Shown: piece after piece, positions 28,841 to 46,273 of the stretch
Layout of the letters: every line of letters begins with the position of its first letter
Position numbering within the stretch: the stretch's first letter is position 1
Source of the DNA: Tepidicaulis marinus
GTDB lineage: Bacteria; Pseudomonadota; Alphaproteobacteria; Parvibaculales; Parvibaculaceae
DNA length: 64,000 nucleotides
Assembly: GCF_000739695.1 (NCBI RefSeq)
Contig: NZ_BBIO01000002.1
Location: forward strand, 124,001-188,000
Reading direction: 5' to 3'
Program-made: the position numbers and the translations under genes
The notes under the pieces: model-generated
What the model saw: only the letters and a program-made list of their open reading frames with translations
The model's database searches: none
What the model was told of the DNA's origin: nothing

Positions 28841-29308
28841 ATGCCCGTTGTCACCATGACGGTCAACGGCAAGTCGGTGAGCGGCGAAGTGGAAGGCCGC
28901 ACGCTTCTTGTTAATTTCATCCGCGATCAACTGAACCTGACGGGCACGCATGTCGGCTGCGACACTAGTCAGTGCGGCGCTTGCGTTGTGCATATTGACG
29001 GCAAAGCCGTGAAATCCTGCGCCACCCTCGCCCTGCAGGCGGACGGCGCGGAAGTTACGACGATCGAAGGCCTTGCCGCGGGCGGCGATCTTCATCCCGT
29101 GCAGCGCGCCTTCAAGGAACATCACGGCCTGCAATGCGGCTTTTGCACGCCGGGCATGATCATGACCGCCGTCGACATGATCCGCCGTAAGCCGGAACTC
29201 GACGAAAAAACCGTCCGCGAAGAGCTGGAAGGCAATCTGTGCCGCTGCACCGGCTATCACAATATCGTCAAAGCGATCCTGGCCGCATCGGAGGAAATGC
29301 GCGCTTAG
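28841..29308 (+). CDS. coxS: Mo-hydroxylase small subunit, 2x[2Fe-2S] (CoxS-like)
   Basis: A 155-residue iron-sulfur subunit. The N-terminal plant-type cluster ligands are in [12 protein letters not shown] plus a later CATL cysteine; the C-terminal cluster ligands are in CGFCTPGMI and CRCTGYHNI. It transfers electrons from the Mo site to the FAD subunit. Start 28841 follows GGGGAGG; the frame is open from 28721 but without similarity. It is 53 bases before coxL, giving the order S-L-M. Confidence 0.93.
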
Positions 29309-29361
29309 GCTCCGGCAGAGACCGGATCGCATCGCACTTGGCGGAAAATGGGAGGAGAGCC

Positions 29362-31725
29362 ATGTCGGAATGGGGTATCGGTAAACCGGTTCGCCGGCGC
29401 GAGGACGACCGTTTCATTCGCGGGCGCGGGCAATATACGGACGACATCAACCGCCCGAACCAGACCCATGCGGTCTTCGTGCGCTCGCCCCATGCCCACG
29501 CGCTGATCCGTTCCATCGATCTTGAAGAAGCCAATGCCGCGCCCGGCGTCGTGGCCGTTTTTACCGGCAAGGATGTGGCCGAAGACGGGCTCGCCGGGCT
29601 CATTTGCGGCTGGACCGTCCATTCCAAGGACGGTTCGGAAATGAAGGCAGGCGGCCATCCCATTCTCGCCGCCGAAAAAGTGCGCTATGTCGGCGATCAT
29701 GTCGCTCTCGTCATCGCGGAGACGAAGGCGCAAGCGCTGGCCGCCGCCGATCTCGTGCTCGTCGATTACGAACCGCTGCCTGCCGTCTCTTTGAAAAACA
29801 GCACCGAGCCCGGCAGCGCGCAGGTGCATGAGGAAGCCCCCGGCAATCTCTGCTTCGAATGGGAGCTTGGCGACAAGACGGCGACCGAAGAGGCTTTTTC
29901 GAAAGCCGCCCGCACCGTCAGCATCGATCTTGCCAATAACCGCCTCGTACCGAACGCCATGGAGCCGCGTGCGGCAATCGGCGATTATGATGCGGGCCGC
30001 GATGAATATACGCTCTGGACCACGAGCCAGAACCCGCATGTCGCCCGGCTTGTGCTTTCCGCCTTTGTGGGGGTAGCGCCGGAACACAAACTCCGCGTCA
30101 TTGCGCCGGATGTCGGCGGCGGCTTCGGCTCGAAGATTTTTATCTATCCGGAAGAGACCGCCTGCGCCTGGGCCTCGAAGAAGATCGGCCGCCCCATCAA
30201 ATGGACGGCGGACCGCTCCGAAGCATTCCTTGCGGATGCTCATGGCCGCGATCATCTGAGCCATGCGGAACTGGCGCTCGATGAAGACGGCAAATTCCTC
30301 GGGCTCAAGGTCAAAACCAAAGCCAATCTCGGCGCCTATCTTTCCACTTTCTCCGCCGCCGTGCCGACCTATCTTTACGGCACGCTTCTTTCGGGCCAAT
30401 ACGACATTCCCGCCATCTATGTGGAAGTCGACGGCGTTTACACAACCACCTCCCCCGTCGATGCCTATCGCGGCGCGGGCCGGCCGGAGGCGACTTACAT
30501 TGTCGAGCGGATCGTGGAAACGGCGGCGCGGGAAAACGGTTTCGATCCGGCGGAAATTCGCCGCATGAATTTCGTCAAAACCTTCCCGCACCAAACCCCG
30601 GTTATCATGAATTACGACATTGGGGATTTCGAAGCCTCGCTCGATAAGGCGCTGGAAGTTGCGGACTATGCGGGCTTCCCGGATCGCAAGGAAGAAGCAG
30701 CCAAACGCGGCAAGCTGCGCGGTATCGGCTTTTCTACGTATATTGAAGCCTGCGGCATTGCGCCCTCCGCCGCTGTCGGTTCGCTCGGCGCCGGTGTCGG
30801 GCTCTGGGAGTCCGCAGAGGTGCAAGTCGCACCCACCGGCAAGATCGAAGTCTTTACCGGTTCGCACTCACATGGCCAGGGGCATGAGACGACTTTTGCC
30901 CAGCTCGTTTCCGAACGCACGGGCCTGCCGCTTGAGGATATCGAGATCATTCACGGCGACACGGGCCGCGTGCAATTCGGTATGGGCACCTATGGCTCGC
31001 GCTCCGGTGCGGTCGGCATGAGCGCCATTTTCAAAGCCATCGACAAGGTGGAAGCCAAGGCCCGCAAGATCGCCGCACAGCTTATGGAAGCAGCCGAAGA
31101 CGATGTGGTGCTGGAGAACGGTGCCTTCACCGTCAAAGGCACGGATAAAAGCCTGAGCTGGCCGGAAGTAACGCTTGCCGCCTATACCGGCCACGGCTTC
31201 GATACGGCGGAGATCGAGCCCGGCCTTAAGGAAAGCGCCTTTTACGATCCGCTCAACTTCACCTTCCCTTCCGGCTGCCATATCTGCGAAATCGAGATCG
31301 ACCCGGAAACCGGCGTGACGGAGATCGTCAATTTCACCGCCATCGACGATTTCGGCACCATCATCAATCCCATGATCGTCGAGGGGCAGGTGCATGGCGG
31401 GCTCGTTCAGGGTATCGGCCAGGCGCTTTACGAGCACGGCATCTACGATGAAGAAAGCGGCCAGCTCATGACCGGTTCCTTCATGGATTACTGCATGCCG
31501 CGTGCGGATAATTTCCCCGGCTTCAAACTCGGCTTCACGCCGACCGTCTGCCCCTCGAACCCGATGGGCATGAAAGGCTGCGGGGAAGCCGGCGCCATCG
31601 GCTCGCCGCCCGCCGTCATCAACGCCATTACCGATGCCCTCGGCATCAAGGACATTCCCATGCCCGCCACGCCTGCGCGGGTCTGGGCCGCCATTCAAAA
31701 CAGTGCCACACCGAAAGCTGCATGA
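29362..31725 (+). CDS. coxL: Mo-hydroxylase large subunit, form II CoxL-like
   Basis: A 787-residue molybdopterin-cytosine-dinucleotide subunit of the xanthine oxidase family. The active-site motif is AYRGAGR at residues 368-374, the form II (BMS-clade) signature; genuine aerobic CO dehydrogenases of form I have AYXCSFR. The catalytic glutamate lies in [12 protein letters not shown] near the C-terminus, and DVGGGFGSK and [10 protein letters not shown] are conserved cofactor contacts. The physiological substrate of form II enzymes is mostly unknown. Start 29362 follows GGGAGGAG. Confidence 0.9.
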
Positions 31726-31737
31726 GGACGACCTCAA

Positions 31738-32535
31738 ATGTATCAATTCGACTATCACCGCCCCGCAAGCCTGAAAGAAGCCTCCGAGCTTTTGAAGAAC
31801 TGCGATGAGGCAAAAATCCTGGCCGGGGGCCAGACATTGATCCCGACGCTGAAGCAGCGCCTGGCCATGCCGAGCGATCTCGTCGATCTCGGCGCGCTGA
31901 AAGAGCTCTCCTTCATCAAGGCCGAGGGCGATGCGATCATGATCGGGGCCGCCACGCCCCATGCCGATGTCGCGGTCAATGCGGATGTGCGCAAGCACCT
32001 GCCCTCCCTTGCCAAACTCGCCGAAGGGATCGGCGATCCCGCCGTCCGCCACAAAGGCACGATCGGCGGCTCGCTCGCCAATAACGATCCTTCCGCCGAT
32101 TATCCGGCAGCCGTCCTCGCCCTCGATGCGAAAATTCACACGACGAAACGGCTGATCGAGGCGGACGAGTTTTTCAAAGGCATGTTCGAAACGGCCCTCG
32201 GGGACGATGAGATCATCACCGAAATCACCTTCCCGCACCCCAAACGCGCCGCTTATGTGAAATTCCCGAACCCGGCATCCCGCTACGCCATGGTCGGCGT
32301 CTTCGTCGCCGAAACGCCCATGGGCATCCGTGTGGCCGTCACGGGCGCGGGCCAGGAAGGTGTTTTCCGGGTCAAGGAAATGGAAGAGGCGCTTGCAAAG
32401 AACTGGTCGGCGGATGCGATCAGCGGCATCAAAGTGCCGGTGGAAAACATGCTCTCCGATCTTCATGGCGACGCCGAATACCGCGCCCATCTCGTCACCG
32501 TCATCGCCAAACGCGCGGTCGCGGCGGCCATTTAA
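31738..32535 (+). CDS. coxM: Mo-hydroxylase medium subunit, FAD-binding (CoxM-like)
   Basis: A 265-residue FAD subunit of the CoxM/CutM family. It shows the two FAD pyrophosphate motifs AGGQTLIPTLKQRL (residues ~31-44) and TIGGSLANNDPSADYP (~104-119), and a typical C-terminal CO_deh_flav_C domain. It accepts electrons from CoxS. It starts 12 bases after coxL. A palindromic repeat pair follows the stop and may mark the end of the structural-gene transcript. Confidence 0.92.
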   Translation: MYQFDYHRPASLKEASELLKNCDEAKILAGGQTLIPTLKQRLAMPSDLVDLGALKELSFIKAEGDAIMIGAATPHADVAVNADVRKHLPSLAKLAEGIGDPAVRHKGTIGGSLANNDPSADYPAAVLALDAKIHTTKRLIEADEFFKGMFETALGDDEIITEITFPHPKRAAYVKFPNPASRYAMVGVFVAETPMGIRVAVTGAGQEGVFRVKEMEEALAKNWSADAISGIKVPVENMLSDLHGDAEYRAHLVTVIAKRAVAAAI

Positions 32536-32564
32536 ATTCGATGCATCGGCTAAAAAATACAATC

Positions 32565-32650
32565 GTCACCCCGGGCTTAACCCGGGGTCCATGCAGCGCC
32601 TCAAATTGCTGATATACTGTTATGGACCCCGGCATGAAAGCCGGGGTGAC
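32565..32650. repeat. Paired palindromic repeat element, copy A
   Basis: Two inverted units face each other: 32565-32592 (GTCACCCCGGGC...GGGGTCCAT) and 32621-32650 (ATGGACCCCGG...CGGGGTGAC), separated by about 28 bases. Each unit is itself a hairpin (CCCCGGG...CCCGGGG) and the two units are reverse complements of each other. The same unit occurs as a pair at 37485-37587 in the opposite order. It resembles REP/BIME-type intergenic repeats. Confidence 0.88.
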
Positions 32651-32699
32651 ACTTAGAATGTGCAGCGCCTCTTTGCCAAACGGTCTTACACGGTCCCTC

Positions 32700-33626
32700 A
32701 TGTCCCTTCCCGCCTCCATCGACGAAACGGTCAAGCTGCTTTCCACCGGCGCCTATGTGGCCGAGCGGCCGCTGGCGACCGTGCTCTACCTTGCCTTGAA
32801 GATGGGAAAGCCGCTGCTGCTGGAAGGGGAAGCCGGTGTCGGCAAAACCGAGGTCGCCAAAGTTCTGGCAAGCGCGCTGGGACGCAAGCTCATCCGCCTG
32901 CAATGTTATGAAGGGCTCGACATTTCCGCCGCCGTTTACGAGTGGAACTATCAGGCGCAGATGATCGAGATCCGCCTTGCCGAGGCTAGCGGCACGGCGC
33001 CGCGCGAGGATCTCGCCAGCGATCTTTTCTCCGAAAAATTTCTGCTGCACCGCCCGCTCCTGCAAGCGCTGGAGCCGGACACTGCCGGGCCGCCGGTCCT
33101 GCTGATCGACGAGCTCGACCGCACGGACGAGCCTTTCGAGGCTTATCTTCTCGAGCTCCTCTCCGATTTCCAGGTCACGATCCCCGAGCTCGGCACGATC
33201 AAGGCGAAAGAGCCGCCCATCGTCATCATTACATCGAACCGCACCCGCGAGATTCATGACGCGCTGAAGCGCCGCTGCCTTTATCACTGGGTGGATTACC
33301 CGTCCGAAGAGCGCGAGCTTGAAATCCTGCGCGCCCGCCTGCCTGAAGCGCCCGAAACGCTTTCGCGCGAAATCACGGCCTTCGTGCAGCGCCTGCGGGG
33401 CGAAGATCTTTATAAAAAGCCCGGCGTTGCTGAAACGCTCGACTGGGCCCGCGCGCTGATCGAGCTCGATGCCGTCTCCCTGACCGGCGAGAACATCAAC
33501 GACACGCTGGGCACCGTTCTAAAATATCAGGAAGACATTGCCCGCATCGAAGGCTCGGAAGCGGCCCGGCTTCTGAGTGAGATCAAAACCCGCCTCGCGG
33601 CGGGCGAGGAAAAGGTGGGGCTTTGA
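32700..33626 (+). CDS. MoxR-type AAA+ ATPase (CoxD-like)
   Basis: A 308-residue AAA+ ATPase of the MoxR group. Walker A is LLEGEAGVGKTEVAKVLA, Walker B VLLIDELDRTDEPFE, sensor 1 IVIITSNRTREIHDALKRR. In Oligotropha, CoxD of this family works with CoxE in assembling the Mo/Cu active site; form II clusters carry it too. I choose ATG 32700 because the upstream open frame runs back into the palindromic repeat. It overlaps the VWA gene by four bases, supporting a MoxR-VWA chaperone pair. Confidence 0.88.
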   Translation: MSLPASIDETVKLLSTGAYVAERPLATVLYLALKMGKPLLLEGEAGVGKTEVAKVLASALGRKLIRLQCYEGLDISAAVYEWNYQAQMIEIRLAEASGTAPREDLASDLFSEKFLLHRPLLQALEPDTAGPPVLLIDELDRTDEPFEAYLLELLSDFQVTIPELGTIKAKEPPIVIITSNRTREIHDALKRRCLYHWVDYPSEERELEILRARLPEAPETLSREITAFVQRLRGEDLYKKPGVAETLDWARALIELDAVSLTGENINDTLGTVLKYQEDIARIEGSEAARLLSEIKTRLAAGEEKVGL

Positions 33627-34831
33627 GCGCCGCGCCGCCTGCCGGGCATTTTGCCGAGAATATCGTCCATTTCGGACGGGTACTGCGCCGGGCCGGGATG
33701 AGCGTCGGCCCGCGTGACATTCTCGATGCCGTGGAAGCGGTGGAATATGCGGGCTTCCACTCCAAAGCCGATTTCTACTGGACGCTTCATGCCGCCCTTG
33801 TGCGCAGCCATGAGGCCCATGAGCTTTTCTCCCAAGCCTTCCATATTTTCTGGCAGGAGCCGAAGCTGCTTGAGCGGATGATGGCGCTCGCCTTGCCTGA
33901 GCTGCGTACGCCGGAGAACAAAGAGCCCGGCGAAAAGGCGCTGCGCCGTCTCGCCGAAGCCCTGATGAGCGGCGATGAGGAGCGGCGGGAAGAAGAGCCC
34001 AATATCGAGATCGACGCCCGTGAAACGCTCTCCCGCGAGGAAGTGCTGCGTGAGCGTGATTTCGAGCAGATGAGCACGGCGGAACTGGCCGAGGCGAAAG
34101 CCGCGCTCCGCCGCCTGCGCCTGCCCGTCAAAGAGCAGCTCACCCGCCGCGCCCGGCCCGCCCTGCGCGGCCGGCAGGTCGACATGCGCCGCACCCTGCA
34201 GCAGAGCTTCCGCGGCCATGACCTCATGGAACTGCGGCGCAAAGAGCCCCACCGGCGCATGCCGCCCATCGTGGTGCTGCTCGATATTTCAGGCTCCATG
34301 TCGCTTTACGCGCGCGTCTTTCTGCATTTCCTCCACGCCATCACCCATGAATGGGACCGGGTCCATGCCTTTCTTTTCGGCACCAGACTCACCAACATTA
34401 CCCGCCATCTTCACCACCGGGATATCGATGCGGCGCTGGGGGAGATTTCCAAAGCCGCCGAGGATTGGGACGGCGGCACCCGGATCGGCGAGACGCTGCG
34501 CCGCTTCAATGTGGAATGGGCCCGCCGGGTGCTGGGTCAGGGCGCTGTGGTGCTGCTCGTGACGGACGGGCTCGACCGGGAAGGCGGCGGCGGGCTGGAA
34601 CCTGAAATCAAGCGCCTCGCCCGCCTCTCCCGGCGGCTTATCTGGCTCAATCCGCTCTTGCGTTATGATGCCTTCGAGCCCAAGGCCGCCGGCATCCGGG
34701 CCATGCTGCCTCATGTGGATGAATTCCGGCCCGTCCATAATCTCAATAGTTTGAGCGCCCTGGTGGACGCGCTCTCCGGCCCTTCCCATATGAAGGGCAA
34801 CCGGCATTCCAGCATGAGGACCCTTCTATGA
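33623..34831 (+). CDS. VWA-domain protein (CoxE-like)
   Basis: A 402-residue VWA_CoxE protein. The C-terminal half has a von Willebrand A domain with the MIDAS motif DISGSMS and the later threonine/aspartate positions in VTDGLDREGG; the N-terminal half is the helical region common to CoxE. It starts at TTG 33623 overlapping the MoxR stop (TTGA). With the MoxR ATPase it probably acts in maturation of the Mo-hydroxylase, by analogy with CoxD/CoxE. Confidence 0.88.
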   Translation: MSAAPPAGHFAENIVHFGRVLRRAGMSVGPRDILDAVEAVEYAGFHSKADFYWTLHAALVRSHEAHELFSQAFHIFWQEPKLLERMMALALPELRTPENKEPGEKALRRLAEALMSGDEERREEEPNIEIDARETLSREEVLRERDFEQMSTAELAEAKAALRRLRLPVKEQLTRRARPALRGRQVDMRRTLQQSFRGHDLMELRRKEPHRRMPPIVVLLDISGSMSLYARVFLHFLHAITHEWDRVHAFLFGTRLTNITRHLHHRDIDAALGEISKAAEDWDGGTRIGETLRRFNVEWARRVLGQGAVVLLVTDGLDREGGGGLEPEIKRLARLSRRLIWLNPLLRYDAFEPKAAGIRAMLPHVDEFRPVHNLNSLSALVDALSGPSHMKGNRHSSMRTLL

Positions 34832-35163
34832 GTGACACCTTCACGGACGATCAGGTCCTGGAACAGGCCGCCGCCTGGCTGGCGGGTGGCCACAAAGTCG
34901 CCCTTGCCACGGTGATCGAGACCTGGGGCTCGGCGCCCCGGCCCGTCGGCAGCCAGCTCGTCATCCGCGACGACACGGCCTTTACCGGCTCCGTTTCCGG
35001 CGGCTGCATCGAGGGGGACGTGATCACCCGCGCCCTCGATCTGATGGAGGGGGACGCGCCCGAAATCCTCGAATATGGCGTCTCGGACGCCATGGCCTGG
35101 GAAGTCGGCCTTGCCTGCGGCGGGCGCATCCGCGTCCTGATCGAGCCGGTAAAGGGGGTCTGA
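34828..35163 (+). CDS. XdhC/CoxI-family protein, N-terminal (CoxI) part
   Basis: A 111-residue protein equal to the N-terminal XdhC_CoxI domain: VALATVIETWGSAPRPVGSQ, then the conserved FTGSVSGGCIEGDV, and ending GGRIRVLIEP. In XdhC this part binds molybdopterin cofactor and hands it to the apoenzyme. Here it is encoded separately from the Rossmann half. It overlaps the VWA gene by four bases and shares one base with the next start. Confidence 0.86.
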   Translation: MSDTFTDDQVLEQAAAWLAGGHKVALATVIETWGSAPRPVGSQLVIRDDTAFTGSVSGGCIEGDVITRALDLMEGDAPEILEYGVSDAMAWEVGLACGGRIRVLIEPVKGV

Positions 35164-35840
35164 TGCAACGCCAAACCCTCGACGCCTTGCTGCGCGCCCG
35201 CGATGAAAAGCGTGCCGTTGTGCTGGCAACACGGTTAAGAGATGGAATCGAAAAACTTATCTATCCATATGATAATATTGAAGAAAAATGGTTAATTGAA
35301 CCAGTTTCTCAAGTTGTGAAATCCGACAAATCGCGCACTGTGGAAGGCCCGGACGGCGAGTGGTTTCTCAACGTTTTCAATCCCCCGCTCCGCCTTATTT
35401 TGGTGGGCGCGGTGCATATCGCCCAGCCGCTGGCGCGCATGGCAGGCGATCTTGGCTATGACGTGGCGGTCATCGACCCGCGCGAGGCCTTTGCCAGCGA
35501 GGAACGCTTTCCGGGCGTCCGGCTGGTGCGCAGCTGGCCGGATGAAGCCATGGCGGAGCTCGCGCCCGATGCCCGCACCGCCGTCGTCACTCTCACCCAT
35601 GATCCCAAACTCGACGATCCGGCCCTTCAGGTCGCCCTCAAGGCGCCTTGCTTCTATATCGGCTCGCTCGGCTCCAAGAAGACCCATGCCGCCCGGCTGG
35701 AGCGGCTCACGGTAGCCGGTTTCGACGAGGCTGCCCTTTCCCGCATCCACGGGCCGGTCGGCCTTGCCATCGGCGCGCGCAGCCCGGCGGAAATCGCCGT
35801 CTCCATCCTTGCAGAAATGACAGCGAGGCTGCGGACATGA
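35163..35840 (+). CDS. XdhC-family protein, C-terminal Rossmann part
   Basis: A 225-residue protein carrying the XdhC Rossmann domain: LRLILVGAVHIAQPLARMA, DYDVAVID-like GYDVAVIDPRE, then VVTLTHDPKLDDPAL and FYIGSLGSKKTHAARLERL. Together with the preceding gene it makes a complete XdhC, probably a cofactor sulfuration/insertion chaperone. Bases 35233-35322 inside it are strikingly AT-rich (26 G or C of 90 by hand count) with rare TTA and AGA codons, unlike the flanks, yet the frame is intact. Confidence 0.86.
   Translation: MQRQTLDALLRARDEKRAVVLATRLRDGIEKLIYPYDNIEEKWLIEPVSQVVKSDKSRTVEGPDGEWFLNVFNPPLRLILVGAVHIAQPLARMAGDLGYDVAVIDPREAFASEERFPGVRLVRSWPDEAMAELAPDARTAVVTLTHDPKLDDPALQVALKAPCFYIGSLGSKKTHAARLERLTVAGFDEAALSRIHGPVGLAIGARSPAEIAVSILAEMTARLRT
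35233..35322 (+). other. AT-rich island inside the XdhC-like gene
   Basis: Ninety bases with about 29 percent G+C by hand count, embedded in coding DNA that is visibly near 60 percent. The reading frame continues and encodes the expected family segment LRDGIEKLIYPYDN. The codons switch abruptly to TTA, AGA, GAA, AAA, AAT and ATT on entry and return to GC-ending codons on exit. Confidence 0.85.
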
Positions 35841-37465
35841 AATTCGCCGATCTGCCCCTGGAAGAGGCCGAAGGCGCGCTCCTTGCCCATAGCCTGCGCG
35901 CCGGGACCAAAGCCTTCAAAAAGGGCCGGAAACTCAGCGCCGCCGACATTGCCGCCCTGCGAGTTGAAGGCATCGAATCCGTCTTTGCCGCCCATCTCGG
36001 CGCGGGTGAAGTGCCCGAAGATGAGGCCGCCGCAAAGCTTGCCGAAGCGCTCGGCGCCGATAGCGGGCTGCGGCCCGGCGCGCCCTTCACTGGCAGGGCC
36101 AATCTTTTCGCCGAAACGGCGGGCCTCACCCTGATCGACCGCAGCGCCATCGACAAGATCAACGCCGTTCACGAGGCGATCACGCTTGCCACCCTTGCCC
36201 CTTATGAAAGCGTGAGCGAGGGGCAGATGGTGGCGACCGTCAAGATCATCCCCTTCGCTTGCCCGAAAGAGGCGCTGGAGGAGGCTTGCGCCATCGCCCG
36301 TGAGCAAACAGCCCTCGGCCTTGCTCCTTTCCAGCCGCAGCGCTACGGCCTTCTTTCCACGCAGCTGCCGAGCCTGAAGGAAAGCCTGCTCGACAAAACC
36401 CGCCAGGTCCTGGAAGCACGCATCACGGCGCTGGAAGGCACGCTGGTGGACGAGGCCCGCCTTGCCCACGAGGTGGGCCCCCTCGCCGCGGCCCTGCAGG
36501 AAATGGCCGGGAAGGCCGACATTCTTCTCGTCTCCGGCGCCTCGGCCATTGTCGACCGGCAGGATGTGGTGCCCGCCGCGATCGAAGCAGCCGGCGGAGC
36601 GGTCCTCCATTTCGGCATGCCTGTCGATCCCGGCAATCTTTTGCTGCTGGGCGAGCTATCCGGCAAACCCGTGCTCGGCCTGCCAGGCTGTGCCCGCTCG
36701 CCCAAGCTGAACGGCGCGGACTGGGTGATGCAGCGCCTCGCCGCCAATCTGCCCGTGGCGCGCGAAGACATCACCGCCATGGGGGTCGGCGGCCTTTTGA
36801 AGGAAATCTCGAGCCGCCCGCAGCCGCGCGAAGGCGGCAAGGTGGGCAGCGCCCGCCCGCGCGTCGTAGCGCTCATTCTCGCCGCCGGGCGCTCCTCGCG
36901 CATGGGGCTTCAGAACAAGCTCCTCGCCCCCATCGAGGGCGTGCCCATGGTGGCCCGCACGGCAAATGCCGCTCTGGCCTCCGGCGCTGACACAATTATT
37001 GCCGTCACCGGCCACGAGAAAGAGGCGGTCGAGGCCGCACTTGCCGCTCACCTGCCCGCCGGAAACAAGCTCCGCCTCACCCATAATCCGGATTACCGCG
37101 AAGGCCTCAGCGCATCCTTGAAAGCCGGCATCGCCGCCGCCGAAAAGGAAGGCGCCGATGCGCTCCTCATTCTCCTCGGCGACATGCCGGATGTAAGCGC
37201 CAGTGTCATCGACCGGCTGATCGCCGCTTACGACCCGGAAGAAGGCCGCCTCATCTGCATTCCCACATTCGCCGGCAAACGCGGCAACCCTGTGCTGTGG
37301 GATGCGCGCTTCTTCGAGGAAATGCAGTCGCTGAGAGGCGATATCGGCGCCAAGCCGCTCATTGCGCAGTATGAAGAAGCGGTCTGCGAGGTGCCGGTAC
37401 CGGAGGACACCATTCACCGGGACCTCGATACGCCCGAAGCGCTGGCGGCCCGGACGAAGACGTAG
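35837..37465 (+). CDS. Molybdopterin-binding / molybdenum cofactor nucleotidyltransferase fusion (MocA-like)
   Basis: A 542-residue two-domain protein. Residues ~1-335 resemble a MoeA/MogA-like molybdopterin-binding region (DILLVSGASAIVDRQDVVPAAIEAAGG and FGMPVDPGNLLLLGEL). Residues ~343-540 are a MobA/MocA nucleotidyltransferase with LILAAGRSSRMG, LLILLGDMPDVS and GKRGNPVLWD. MocA makes molybdopterin cytosine dinucleotide, the cofactor form used by CoxL-type enzymes. It overlaps the XdhC gene by four bases and closes the maturation part of the cluster. Confidence 0.87.
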   Translation: MKFADLPLEEAEGALLAHSLRAGTKAFKKGRKLSAADIAALRVEGIESVFAAHLGAGEVPEDEAAAKLAEALGADSGLRPGAPFTGRANLFAETAGLTLIDRSAIDKINAVHEAITLATLAPYESVSEGQMVATVKIIPFACPKEALEEACAIAREQTALGLAPFQPQRYGLLSTQLPSLKESLLDKTRQVLEARITALEGTLVDEARLAHEVGPLAAALQEMAGKADILLVSGASAIVDRQDVVPAAIEAAGGAVLHFGMPVDPGNLLLLGELSGKPVLGLPGCARSPKLNGADWVMQRLAANLPVAREDITAMGVGGLLKEISSRPQPREGGKVGSARPRVVALILAAGRSSRMGLQNKLLAPIEGVPMVARTANAALASGADTIIAVTGHEKEAVEAALAAHLPAGNKLRLTHNPDYREGLSASLKAGIAAAEKEGADALLILLGDMPDVSASVIDRLIAAYDPEEGRLICIPTFAGKRGNPVLWDARFFEEMQSLRGDIGAKPLIAQYEEAVCEVPVPEDTIHRDLDTPEALAARTKT

Positions 37466-37603: not shown

Positions 37604-39211
37604 TCACACCTTCATCACAACACCCGCATGGGCCCCAAGCTCTAGCATCCCCTCACTCAAGCTCCCCACGCCCGTTTGGAACAGCACCTCGCCTTGCGCC
37701 GGAACGCGCCGCGCCTCCCGCGTCAGATTGAAAAGGCAGCGCCGTTTCTCGCCTTCATAAGCGCGCTCGTAAATCAGTACACCGTCCGGCCCTTCCTCGA
37801 AACGGATGGCGCCCCAGGTGAGCGCCGCATCGCTTTTGCGCAAGGCGATTGCCGCGCGGGTGAAATGCAAGACGGAGGTCAGGTCTTTTTCCTGCGCCTC
37901 CACGCTGCGGGTCAAATGGCTCTCAGGCATCGGCAGCCAGGGTTTGCCGGAGGTGAAGCCCGCATGGGGCTTTCCTTCTTCCCAGGGCATCGGTGTGCGG
38001 CAGCCGTCACGCCCCTTGGCGAAGGGGAAATAGAGATCGCCCACCGGGTCTTTGATGTCCTCGCGGGCAAGATCGGCCTCGGGCAGGCCAAGCTCCTCGC
38101 CCTGATACATCAGCACCGTGCCGCGCAGCGTGAGGAGAATGAGCAGGCAAAGCTTTGCCAGCTCGTCATCCCCCGCGCCGCCGCCCCAGCGTGTCACCGT
38201 GCGGATCACATCATGGTTGGAAAAGGTCACGCAGGGCCAAAGATCGGGCACCGCCGCCAGCACGTCTTCGTAATAGGCACGGAAGGTCGCGGGCTCGAAA
38301 GACCAGCTTTCCAGGAAATGAAACGTATAGCCCGTATGCAGCTTGTCCGGCTCGCCTGCATAAAGCGGCAAGCGTTTCGGCTCTTCGGAAAACTCGCCGA
38401 AGGCCCAGCTTCCTTCGTATTCGTCCATCACGCGGCGCACCTCGCGCATCGACCGTTCGTTTTCCAGCGTATTGGCATCATGGATATGACGCTGCAGGCG
38501 CGGTGCATGGGCCCAATCGAGGAAGGTGCGTTCCTCCATCGGCAAAGGCGGATTGTCGGTCAGTTTTTCGTCATGCACGAAACTGTTCGCCACATCGAGA
38601 CGGAACCCGTCCACCCCGCGCTCCAGCCAGAAGCGCAGCACGTCCATCACCGCTTTGACGACGTCTTTATTGTGAAAATTCAGCTTCGGCTGCTGGCGCA
38701 GAAACTTATGGAAGTAATATTGCCGGCGCAGCGGATGCCAGGACCAGGCGGCCCCGCCAAAGGCGCTCAGCCAATTATTCGGCACCGTGCCGTCTTCCTT
38801 CGCCTCTGCCCAGACATACCAATCTTTTTTGGCGTTATCCCGCGAAAGCAAACTTTCCTGAAACCAGGGATGCTGGTCCGAGGTGTGGCTGAGCACCTGA
38901 TCGAGAATAAGTTTCAGCCCGCGCCCGTGCAGGTCTTTCACCAGCATGCCGAATTCGGCAAGCGTGCCGAATTTCGGGTCGATATCGCAATAATCCGACA
39001 CGTCATAGCCATAGTCCCGGTCCGGCGAGGGATAGACCGGCGAGAGCCAGAGCGCGTCCGCTCCCAGTTTTTCCACATAATCGAGCTTGCTGCGCAAGCC
39101 CGCCAGATCGCCGATCCCGTCCCCATTCGTGTCGCAAAAGCTTCGCGGGTAGATCTGATAGACAATCGCCCCTTTCCACCAGGCTTGTTGGCCGCCCGTT
39201 ACATCGTTCAT
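37604..39211 (-). CDS. GH13 alpha-glucosidase (oligo-1,6-glucosidase type)
   Basis: A 535-residue glycoside hydrolase family 13 enzyme. It begins WWKGAIVYQIYPRSFCDTNG and shows the family regions: DQVLSHTSDQHPWF (region I), GFRLDVANSF with the nucleophile aspartate (II), AFGEFSEE with the acid/base glutamate (III), and TFSNHDVIR with the stabilising aspartate (IV). No signal peptide, so it acts on imported oligosaccharides such as maltose, isomaltose or sucrose. No sugar transporter is adjacent. It is divergent from the dehalogenase-like gene. Confidence 0.9.
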   Translation of the reverse strand: MNDVTGGQQAWWKGAIVYQIYPRSFCDTNGDGIGDLAGLRSKLDYVEKLGADALWLSPVYPSPDRDYGYDVSDYCDIDPKFGTLAEFGMLVKDLHGRGLKLILDQVLSHTSDQHPWFQESLLSRDNAKKDWYVWAEAKEDGTVPNNWLSAFGGAAWSWHPLRRQYYFHKFLRQQPKLNFHNKDVVKAVMDVLRFWLERGVDGFRLDVANSFVHDEKLTDNPPLPMEERTFLDWAHAPRLQRHIHDANTLENERSMREVRRVMDEYEGSWAFGEFSEEPKRLPLYAGEPDKLHTGYTFHFLESWSFEPATFRAYYEDVLAAVPDLWPCVTFSNHDVIRTVTRWGGGAGDDELAKLCLLILLTLRGTVLMYQGEELGLPEADLAREDIKDPVGDLYFPFAKGRDGCRTPMPWEEGKPHAGFTSGKPWLPMPESHLTRSVEAQEKDLTSVLHFTRAAIALRKSDAALTWGAIRFEEGPDGVLIYERAYEGEKRRCLFNLTREARRVPAQGEVLFQTGVGSLSEGMLELGAHAGVVMKV

Positions 39212-39320
39212 TGTGACGCCTCTTCCTCCCGCTTATGATCCTGCCAGCATAATAACAATCGCACTCATGCGTAAATCGGCAAGGCTGCACAGCCTGGCCG
39301 CGAGAAAGGGAGAAGCCGTT

Positions 39321-40055
39321 TTGCCCCGCACCGTTCTGATTACCGACGTCACCCGTTTCATCGGCATACCCGGCACGAAAGCGCTGCTGGAGGAAGGCTA
39401 TAAAGTCTTCGGCACCGATCCCGATTTCACCGATGACAGCAAACGCAGCGCCTATGAAAAGGCCTGCCCCGGCGCAACGGCGCTCTTACCGGATTCGTCT
39501 GACAATTTGGTGAAAGCTACGGTGGAAGCAGGCGGCACGCTCGATGTGCTCATCAACAACGATGCCTATCCGGCCCATCGCGCCAGCGTGGAAGAGGCAA
39601 GCGACGAGCTTCTGCGAAAAACCTTCGATATGCTCTTTTTCAAAGCCTATGCCATGGCCCGCGCCGCCGTGCCGCAAATGAAAAAGCAGGGCAGTGGCAA
39701 AATCATTTTCAACACCTCCGCCGCGCCGCTGAACGGCTTGCGCAATTATTCGGTCTATGTGTCCGCCCGCGGCGCGGCCAATGCGCTCGCCCGGACGCTG
39801 GCGCTGGAACTTGCCGCCGACAATATTCAGGTCAACGCCGTCGCTCCCAACTTCGTGGACAACCCGGATTATTTCCCGCCCGAACTTATGGCCGATCCGG
39901 ACAAGGCCGCGCGCATTCTGAAGAACATTCCGATGGGCCGGCTCGGCAAGCCGGAAGAAGCCGCCTCCCTGCTTGCCTATCTTGCCAGCGAGAAGTCGAG
40001 TTTCATCACGGGACAGATCATTCCCCTTGCCGGCGGCTGGGCAAGCGCCCGTTAA
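39321..40055 (+). CDS. Halohydrin dehalogenase (SDR-derived)
   Basis: A 244-residue protein with an SDR scaffold but without the cofactor glycine motif. At the N-terminus it has T8-x4-F13-x-G15 (TDVTRFIG), the halide-pocket motif of halohydrin dehalogenases. The catalytic residues are S133-x12-Y146-x3-R150 (TS...YVSAR), the Ser-Tyr-Arg triad with arginine in place of the SDR lysine. The position is offset by one from HheC (S132, Y145, R149). PNFVDNPDYFPPE also resembles the HheC pocket segment. Start TTG 39321 has AAGGGAGA upstream; an ATG at 39267 is possible. The enzyme would convert vicinal haloalcohols to epoxides and open epoxides with azide, cyanide or nitrite. Confidence 0.88.
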   Translation: MPRTVLITDVTRFIGIPGTKALLEEGYKVFGTDPDFTDDSKRSAYEKACPGATALLPDSSDNLVKATVEAGGTLDVLINNDAYPAHRASVEEASDELLRKTFDMLFFKAYAMARAAVPQMKKQGSGKIIFNTSAAPLNGLRNYSVYVSARGAANALARTLALELAADNIQVNAVAPNFVDNPDYFPPELMADPDKAARILKNIPMGRLGKPEEAASLLAYLASEKSSFITGQIIPLAGGWASAR

Positions 40056-40091: not shown

Positions 40092-40580
40092 ATGCTTTCG
40101 GAAAATCCCGTTGAAGTGACCGCCATGGACCATCTTTATCTCTCCGTCTCGGATATCGAGCGGTCCATGCGCTTTTACGACACGGTATTCGGCATTCTGG
40201 ATTTCCGGCGCGGCGACATGAAAATCGCCGGGGCACCGCATTATCACTATTTCAACAAGGTGATGCAGATTTCCATCCGCCCAGCCTCGCCGCATGCGCC
40301 GGCCCATGATCCTTATCAGCCGGGGCTGCACCATCTTTGCCTGCAAGTGAAAGACGAAGCGGCGCTGAAAGAAGCCTGGCATCAGCTAAAAGCCGCCGGG
40401 ATCGAGGCAAGCGAGCCCGCCTATCACACCGATTATGCGCCGGATTATTACGCGATCTTTTTCAGCGATCCGGACGGGCTGCGCCTGGAGCTCGTCGCCC
40501 GCCGTGCGCAACGTGAGCGCATTCAAGCCGAATGGGCGCGCCTCACCCGTTTTGAAAACCCGTTTGACGCGCTGGACTGA
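40092..40580 (+). CDS. VOC (glyoxalase/bleomycin-resistance) family protein
   Basis: A 162-residue single-domain VOC protein with two beta-alpha-beta-beta-beta halves. Likely metal ligands are the histidine of DHLYLSV, the histidines of GLHHLCLQV and the glutamate in DPDGLRLELV. The reaction is not predictable from sequence: the superfamily includes glyoxalases, dioxygenases, epimerases and thiol transferases that open epoxides. It starts 36 bases after the halohydrin dehalogenase-like gene on the same strand and is probably co-transcribed with it. Confidence 0.82.
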   Translation: MLSENPVEVTAMDHLYLSVSDIERSMRFYDTVFGILDFRRGDMKIAGAPHYHYFNKVMQISIRPASPHAPAHDPYQPGLHHLCLQVKDEAALKEAWHQLKAAGIEASEPAYHTDYAPDYYAIFFSDPDGLRLELVARRAQRERIQAEWARLTRFENPFDALD

Positions 40581-40582
40581 TC

Positions 40583-41323
40583 TCAGTTCAGCATGGCCAC
40601 GGCGCGCAGTACCGGGCCGATTTCCTCATGCAGAACGAGATCGGCAATCTCGTCCATATCCGTTTCTTCCCGGTTGATGATGATCAGCCGCGCGCCGTTG
40701 CGCTTGGCCAAAATGGGAAAGCCCGCCGCCGGAAAGACCTGCAAGGACGAGCCGATGGCAAGAAAGAGATCGCAGCCCAGCGTTGCCTCATGGGCCCGCT
40801 CCATTTCCTTTTCCGGCATGGCTTGACCGAAAGAGATCGTCGCCGATTTGACGATGCCGCCGCAGTCCCGGCAATCGGGCGCGGCGCCCGAAGCCTCGAA
40901 CAAAGCGCGGACCTCTTCGAGCTCATGACGCAGCCCGCAGCCGAGGCAGGTTGCATAGGTAGCATTGCCGTGCAATTCGATGATTTTGTCTTCCGGCACG
41001 CCGGAGACATGGTGCAGCCCGTCCACATTCTGCGTGATGACATGGCTCACCTTGCCCTCACCCACCCACTTGGCGATCGCCATATGGCCCTTATTGGGCG
41101 CGGCTTTCGCCATGGTTTTGTCCATTTCGAATTTGCGCCGCCAGGCTTCCGCGCGCATATCGGCTGAGGCCATGAATTCCTGGAAATCGATGGGCGCATA
41201 TTTCTTCCAAAGCCCCGTCGGGCTGCGGAAATCGGGAATACCGGATTCCGTGCTGATCCCCGCCCCGGTAAAAACCACCACGCGGTAGCTTTCCTCGATT
41301 GCCCGTTTCAGTTCCTGGCTCAT
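40583..41323 (-). CDS. cobB: Sir2-type NAD-dependent protein deacylase
   Basis: A 246-residue sirtuin. The NAD-binding motif GAGISTESGIPDFRSP is at residues ~21-36, the catalytic histidine is in ELHGN (after QNVDGLHHVSG), and four zinc cysteines appear as CLGC and CRDC. This is a class U/III-like bacterial sirtuin removing acyl groups from lysine. It converges on the VOC gene with only two bases between stops and is divergent from the next glyoxalase-like gene. Confidence 0.9.
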   Translation of the reverse strand: MSQELKRAIEESYRVVVFTGAGISTESGIPDFRSPTGLWKKYAPIDFQEFMASADMRAEAWRRKFEMDKTMAKAAPNKGHMAIAKWVGEGKVSHVITQNVDGLHHVSGVPEDKIIELHGNATYATCLGCGLRHELEEVRALFEASGAAPDCRDCGGIVKSATISFGQAMPEKEMERAHEATLGCDLFLAIGSSLQVFPAAGFPILAKRNGARLIIINREETDMDEIADLVLHEEIGPVLRAVAMLN

Positions 41324-44932: not shown

Positions 44933-45520
44933 ATGAATTGCAGCTCTGACTGCGCGCCAGAAGGCGGGAAATACTTTAACAGCCCAAGAAAAGACGAACC
45001 GGTATCCGAAGAACTCCAAGCGCTGATAACGCGGGCAGGCCAATTAAATCCTCCTATCCTGCTCGATCCCACCTTGTCCTTCGAATACCGCATTCCCGCA
45101 GCCGGGCTCGGCTACTGGAACGCCAAGCGCCCGGCGGACGGCCGCCTGCCGCCGCGCAGCGCCGTCAATCCGGCGGAGCTTGCCAAATATCTGCCGGCCC
45201 TTGCCTTGATCGATGTAAGCGAAAATGAAAATGGCGGCATCGAGCTTTTCAGCCGCCTGGCCGGCGCCGAAGTCGAGCGGGTTTTCGGCATGATGAGCCG
45301 GCAGGACCTACGAAAACGGCTGCCGCCGGAAATATTTGCACGCTGGCAGATTATCTTCCGTGCCCTGTGGGTCGCCGAGGCGCCGCTGCGCATCACCAGC
45401 CGCATCGCCTATGAAGACAAAACCTATCTCTATATCGAGTGTCTTTTTGCCCCGCTCGCGAATAGCGACCCCAACTCCATCACATCGCTCATTTTTGCCG
45501 AATTCCGTATGGATAGCTAA
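44933..45520 (+). CDS. PAS_5-domain protein, first of tandem pair
   Basis: A 195-residue protein of the PAS_5 family found in alphaproteobacteria. Family features are YWNAKRPADGRLPPRSAVNPAELAKYLP-type core (YW...R...P...L...LP) and FSRLAGAEVERVFG, with a poorly conserved N-terminal ~45 residues. No output domain is attached. AAGGAG precedes the ATG. A perfect hairpin GCTCTT/AAGAGC lies at 44883-44899 in its leader. It is followed by a paralogue at 45692. Confidence 0.8.
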   Translation: MNCSSDCAPEGGKYFNSPRKDEPVSEELQALITRAGQLNPPILLDPTLSFEYRIPAAGLGYWNAKRPADGRLPPRSAVNPAELAKYLPALALIDVSENENGGIELFSRLAGAEVERVFGMMSRQDLRKRLPPEIFARWQIIFRALWVAEAPLRITSRIAYEDKTYLYIECLFAPLANSDPNSITSLIFAEFRMDS

Positions 45521-45669: not shown

Positions 45670-45691
45670 ATGAAGCTCGTTGGGGGGAAAA

Positions 45692-46273
45692 ATGTCATCG
45701 ACATTCCAATCGACTATCGGCACAGATGCTCAGGCCGGGCTGCAGCAGGGCGACACGGACGTCCCGCAAACCCTTGAGGCGGTCATGGCACGCTGCGAAA
45801 ACTTTTCGCCGCCCAGTTTCATCGATACCAAACTCGACTTCCGTTATGAAATCCCCGCCATCGGGCATAAATATTGGCTGTCGAAATGCCGTAACGGCAC
45901 CTTCCCGCACCGGCGCGATATCAGCCCGGTGGAGCTTTCCGCCCAATTGCCCAATGTAGGCCTGTTCGAAATCAACCGGAACGCCGCGCCGCTCAATCTC
46001 TACTGCCGGATCGCTGGGGACAGTATCGAGCAGGTCTATGGCAAGATGCACCGGCAATTCATCCGCGAATGCCTGCCGCTCGAACAGGCAACCCGCTTCG
46101 ATTGCTATGCGGCGGCCGTTCTTCTTTCCGGCGCGCCCATCCGCATCAGCGGCAAGGTGAGCCACGAAGAACGCACCTTCATGGATGCGGAGATGCTGGC
46201 CGCCCCGCTCGCCACGGATGACCAGGACCGCCTGCAGATTATCGTCTTCGCGGAATATCAGCCGGTGTCCTGA
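45692..46273 (+). CDS. PAS_5-domain protein, second of tandem pair
   Basis: A 193-residue PAS_5 protein clearly related to the one at 44933: shared pattern is F.Y.IPA.G..YW, R.I.P.EL...LP, and CRIAGDSIEQVYGKM against SRLAGAEVERVFGMM. Sequence between these anchors has diverged, so the duplication is old. Start 45692 follows GGGGGG; 45680 is an alternative. A 171-base gap separates it from the first gene, so it may have its own promoter. No output domain is present. Confidence 0.8.
   Translation: MSSTFQSTIGTDAQAGLQQGDTDVPQTLEAVMARCENFSPPSFIDTKLDFRYEIPAIGHKYWLSKCRNGTFPHRRDISPVELSAQLPNVGLFEINRNAAPLNLYCRIAGDSIEQVYGKMHRQFIRECLPLEQATRFDCYAAAVLLSGAPIRISGKVSHEERTFMDAEMLAAPLATDDQDRLQIIVFAEYQPVS

Follow-up and report, generated by a model that had tools for sequence, protein, structure and literature searches.

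A chromosomal gene of Tepidicaulis marinus very probably encoding a halohydrin dehalogenase orthologous to HheA3

A stretch of 64,000 nucleotides from Tepidicaulis marinus (hereafter the window; contig NZ_BBIO01000002.1, positions 124,001 to 188,000 of the forward strand) contains a gene that resembles those of the short-chain dehydrogenases/reductases (SDRs), and in which a first-pass annotation recognised the signature of a halohydrin dehalogenase (HHDH). Does this gene encode an HHDH or an ordinary SDR, and what could its product do in the organism that carries it? HHDHs, which convert chloro- or bromo-alcohols to epoxides, are distinguished by two fingerprints, T-x4-F/Y-x-G and S-x12-Y-x3-R, whose SDR counterparts are T-G/A-x3-G/A-x-G and S-x10-14-Y-x3-K (PMC11976700; PMC4989007). 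In the HHDH mechanism the serine positions the hydroxyl, the tyrosine acts as base, the arginine lowers the pKa of the tyrosine, and the halide exits into a pocket standing where the nicotinamide site was (PMC4989007).

Coding sequence and motifs

The gene is a single uninterrupted frame of 244 amino acids and a stop codon (Table 1). Its TTG start is credible, since GGGAG lies 8 nt upstream and the gene of a sibling species, 92% identical, has a methionine at the matching column. The T-x4-F-x-G that had been reported at the position of the dinucleotide motif was found at residues 8, 13, and 15, and the reported triad at residues 133, 146, and 150. All six residues are displaced by one from their equivalents in HheC (T7, F12, G14, S132, Y145, and R149 in the sequence of PDB 1pwx), as had also been stated. 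Neither TGxxxG/AxG nor YxxxK, the motifs of classical NAD(P)-dependent SDRs, occurs in the protein. The pocket segment had been likened to that of HheC. It is a halide-type loop, but its resemblance is to HheA: HheA2 has PNFFNNPTYFPT at the alignment columns of the window loop PNFVDNPDYFPPE, and the loop of HheC is longer.

Table 1. Features of the locus, in window coordinates.
Feature	Position	Strand	Remarks
HHDH coding sequence	39321..40055	+	244 aa, TTG start
Probable Shine-Dalgarno sequence GGGAG	39308..39312	+	8 nt 5' of the TTG; assigned by reading
Motif 1, T8-x4-F13-x-G15 (TDVTRFIG)	39342..39365	+	Predicted nucleophile/halide pocket replacing the SDR glycine-rich motif; definition from PMC11976700
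Motif 2, S133-x12-Y146-x3-R150	39717..39770	+	Catalytic triad; S, Y, and R invariant in 31 relatives
Putative halide-site loop, P176-E188 (PNFVDNPDYFPPE)	39846..39884	+	From the alignment; N177 and Y184 invariant in relatives
Alpha-amylase family glycosidase (PF00128)	37604..39211	-	Divergent neighbour; beside the HHDH gene in most family genomes
VOC/glyoxalase-superfamily protein	40092..40580	+	Co-directional, 36 nt downstream of the HHDH gene
Sir2-family gene	40583..41323	-	Convergent; conserved downstream neighbour

Across the aligned relatives the halide-site residues are strongly conserved. All full-length relatives of at least about 44% identity retain S-Y-R, and nearly all retain T..F/W..G. 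Some variants lie outside the published form of motif 1, with tryptophan in place of Phe/Tyr (T-x4-W-x-G; loci L129, L131, and L132) or serine in place of threonine (L136 and L140).

How often the two motifs occur together by chance was estimated from open reading frames of at least 180 codons in 1.7 Mb of fetched loci. Both motifs, 110-140 residues apart, were present in 51 of 2,321 distinct frames, and every one of the 51 was a homologue of the window protein; these loci were partly chosen for their resemblance to the query, and 51 is therefore not a natural frequency. The informative parts of the control are the complete absence of the in-register pair from the 107 other SDR-like matches in this set, and its appearance in only 2 of 11,605 shuffled frames.

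Relationships in sequence and fold

The best matches of the window protein among Pfam and NCBIfam models were general SDR models, with none named for HHDHs, which fits the earlier expectation that such a gene would usually be annotated as an SDR. Searches against PDB sequences were more specific. The best match was 6a41, described as a 'dehalogenase' (1.4e-60), followed by HheA, HheA2, an HheD2-like entry, and HheC, with ordinary SDRs weaker than the HHDH entries. A single-sequence pattern scan of the genome contigs returned two close named relatives, the remainder being SDRs.

In a tree of 80 sequences, which left out types E, F, and G and whose bootstrap was not fully settled, the HHDH-like set and the SDRs were divided by a split with support 100/100, and the query fell with the HHDHs and away from the NAD(P)-dependent SDRs, a placement among which would have spoken against the first-pass annotation. 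The split was kept (SH-aLRT 93) when the columns of both motifs and of the halide loop were removed; the grouping is thus not derived from the motifs alone. Within the HHDH-like set the query belongs to a clade of 12 (100/97) composed of sequences from Parvibaculaceae and from one other family in the class. It joins HheA2, HheC, and 6a41 at a node supported at 69/80 only, and the label "A" is that of the literature.

A single-chain AlphaFold2 model was built from an alignment of 31 proteins (window protein and locus proteins), with pLDDT 93.6 and pTM 0.91. Foldseek comparison with the PDB placed 6a41 first (TM 0.94, rmsd 1.5, 43% identity), with HheC at 0.91 and HheA at 0.90; ordinary SDRs, human ones included, scored about 0.87 and were interleaved from rank 6. 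The fold, as modelled, separates HHDHs from SDRs weakly, and the discrimination comes from the sequence evidence. Sequence and predicted fold together indicate that a halide-type loop replaces the TGxxxGxG motif, at the point where an intact dinucleotide pocket would have spoken against the first-pass annotation.

One HHDH that has been characterised, and that shows raised thermostability, is HheA3 from Parvibaculum lavamentivorans DS-1 (PMC4989007). A genome (G013) of the Parvibaculaceae, the family of T. marinus, was searched with HheA2, and the top gene (2.3e-38; next match 1.6e-11) was the orthologue of the window gene. It carries TDIAHFVG and SAAPLNGIPNYSIYAAAR, whereas SDR motifs are found in the seven matches that follow it. 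We strongly infer, on grounds that include the uniqueness of its HHDH motifs among the matches examined, that this orthologue is HheA3 of DS-1. The window gene is accordingly a new orthologue of an already characterised HHDH. The two share their place in the tree, both motifs, and their neighbours (the divergent alpha-amylase family gene and Sir2), at about 58% identity. They differ in 42% of residues, and the putative DS-1 HheA3 loop reads FNFIESPDYFPAS where the window protein has PNFVDNPDYFPPE; identity at this level does not guarantee shared substrates.

The closest solved structure is 6a41, annotated as a 'dehalogenation enzyme', which has both motifs and an NPDYFPP loop but belongs to another alphaproteobacterial clade in the tree. 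A literature search for HheE or 6a41 found no papers. HheA and HheA2 (4z9f and 1zmo) have both motifs and a very similar halide loop, but are only about 33% identical and form a separate clade. HheC of Agrobacterium radiobacter AD1 likewise has both motifs, at 33% identity. In HheC a C-terminal extension carrying Trp249 extends to the adjacent active site, a feature that the window protein lacks. HheC was the comparator chosen in the first-pass annotation; the nearest characterised relatives are HheA3 and 6a41. The classical SDRs (FabG-like and glucose 1-dehydrogenase models) share the Rossmann fold and the Ser and Tyr of the triad; TGxxxGxG and YxxxK are missing from the window protein. Taken with its position in the tree, its halide-type loop, and its orthology to HheA3, the product is very probably an HHDH, for which halide release, substrate range, stereochemistry, and a tetrameric state are predictions from homology. 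We hold with high confidence that it is a cofactor-independent enzyme belonging to the A/C branch and the orthologue of DS-1 HheA3.

Distribution, neighbourhood, and selection

Such enzymes had been described as rare, a view that the survey did not bear out for this family or for many Alphaproteobacteria. Within Parvibaculaceae 27 of 40 genomes had a match at E <= 1e-40 (21 of the 27 good genomes), a few of these matches being divergent relatives with HHDH motifs at about 35% identity. Among 385 sampled genomes of the Alphaproteobacteria, 48 had a match at E <= 1e-35, more distant HHDH clades included. Three genomes of the family (G032, G031, and G036; loci L113, L114, and L116) were without a close orthologue at the threshold and had instead a divergent gene with HHDH motifs, about 35% identical and differently placed.

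The usual placement in the family is between the divergent alpha-amylase family gene and the convergent Sir2 gene, and a maturation cluster for molybdenum enzymes (CoxE-like, XdhC, and MobA-like) adjoins the region. In the window, positions 29239-37465 hold a row of genes for molybdenum hydroxylase-like large and FAD-type subunits (both assigned by reading), an AAA ATPase, a CoxE-like VWA protein, XdhC, and a MobA-like NTP transferase, which form a cluster for a CO-dehydrogenase-like enzyme with its maturation genes. The alpha-amylase family neighbour recurs in another alphaproteobacterial family (L172 and L175). Outside these two families the neighbours vary by lineage (COQ9, PurK, acyl-CoA dehydrogenase, amidohydrolase, and BrkB). 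Two further features of the window were recorded: a 520-codon forward frame at 37676-39238, antisense to the alpha-amylase family gene, which is most likely a spurious high-GC ORF, and tandem short PAS_5-domain paralogues at 44933-45520 and 45680-46273, a pair also found in the sibling genome.

Candidate partners of the enzyme were considered in this neighbourhood. The VOC gene is found downstream only in the window's genus among those examined, and is possibly co-transcribed with the HHDH gene. That it might be a FosA-like epoxide-opening partner is speculation, as the matches were weak and far below cut-offs. No epoxide hydrolase or halogen-metabolism gene was found beside the HHDH gene at this locus. 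An operon with an epoxide hydrolase is ruled out here, two EHN-type genes and one limonene-type gene all being located on other contigs. The remaining neighbours offered no functional partner; they are generally conserved within the family and change outside it.

Comparison of the gene with that of the sibling species (NG86) gave dN 0.050, dS 0.368, and dN/dS 0.135, with 15, 10, and 54 changes at codon positions 1, 2, and 3. The gene is under purifying selection and maintained; it is apparently vertically inherited, and not a recent catabolic acquisition.

Unusual relatives were encountered elsewhere in the class. Three genomes of a single family (G243, G332, and G135; loci L188, L189, and L190) have two HHDH-like genes in tandem. 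The first has S-Y-R and a motif 1 of the form T-x4-Y-x-G, except for isoleucine in place of threonine in L188, whereas its partner has glutamine for arginine (S-Y-Q) and P, S, or G for the aromatic residue of motif 1. Retention of the tandem in all three genomes suggests an active/inactive pair, perhaps assembling as a mixed tetramer. Three sequences that group with HheA2 (L194 in G073, L197 in G390, and L202 in G185) keep T-x4-Y-x-G and the arginine, with the catalytic tyrosine missing from its usual place.

Proposed reaction and native role

By analogy with HheC, the hydroxyl of the substrate would be held by Ser133 and deprotonated by Tyr146, whose pKa Arg150 would lower. Attack by the resulting alkoxide would displace the adjacent halide and form an epoxide; the pocket lined by Thr8, Phe13, Gly15, and the loop 176-188 would receive the departing halide. 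In reverse, halide, azide, cyanide, or similar anions would be expected to open an epoxide. The natural role would most likely be a chromosomally encoded removal of halohydrins that the cell encounters in hydrocarbon-rich or marine habitats.

A different native reaction in an enzyme of HHDH fold, for example a lyase reaction or epoxide opening with a natural metabolite and a non-halide anion, would leave dehalogenation as a side activity. We consider this unlikely on balance, yet it is the alternative that deserves most weight: the gene is chromosomal and vertically inherited in 21 of 27 good family genomes, with conserved neighbours that include no dehalogenation partner, and only two HHDH genes have been described that share an operon with an epoxide hydrolase gene, other physiological functions being regarded as possible (PMC4989007). 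Its halide-site residues are strongly conserved, however, and the neighbourhood hints at no alternative substrate or pathway. That the protein is a degenerate, catalytically dead relative of the HHDHs is very improbable; relatives that look dead do occur in other parts of the clade, with Y replaced or with Q for R, but here the motif residues are all present, the frame is intact, and dN/dS is low. Least credible is that the protein is an oxidoreductase of the ordinary NAD(P)-dependent SDR kind which matches the motifs by coincidence. The general family models and the SDR-like fold might suggest this reading, but it is ruled out by the absent glycine-rich motif and the Arg for Lys, by trees that set the protein apart with or without those columns, and by the very low chance rate of the motif pair.

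HHDHs are prized in biocatalysis as a route to chiral epoxides and beta-substituted alcohols, and an orthologue of the thermostable HheA3 is a useful addition to them. For the biology of the group, we tentatively propose that the HHDH is a long-standing chromosomal gene kept by selection in Parvibaculaceae and many Alphaproteobacteria, and that its native task may be an undescribed, ordinary metabolic or detoxification step rather than the degradation of synthetic haloalcohols, a proposal we regard as possible but short of probable. Because its chromosomal placement is conserved across the family, the native function can be tested, and this placement provides a handle for doing so.
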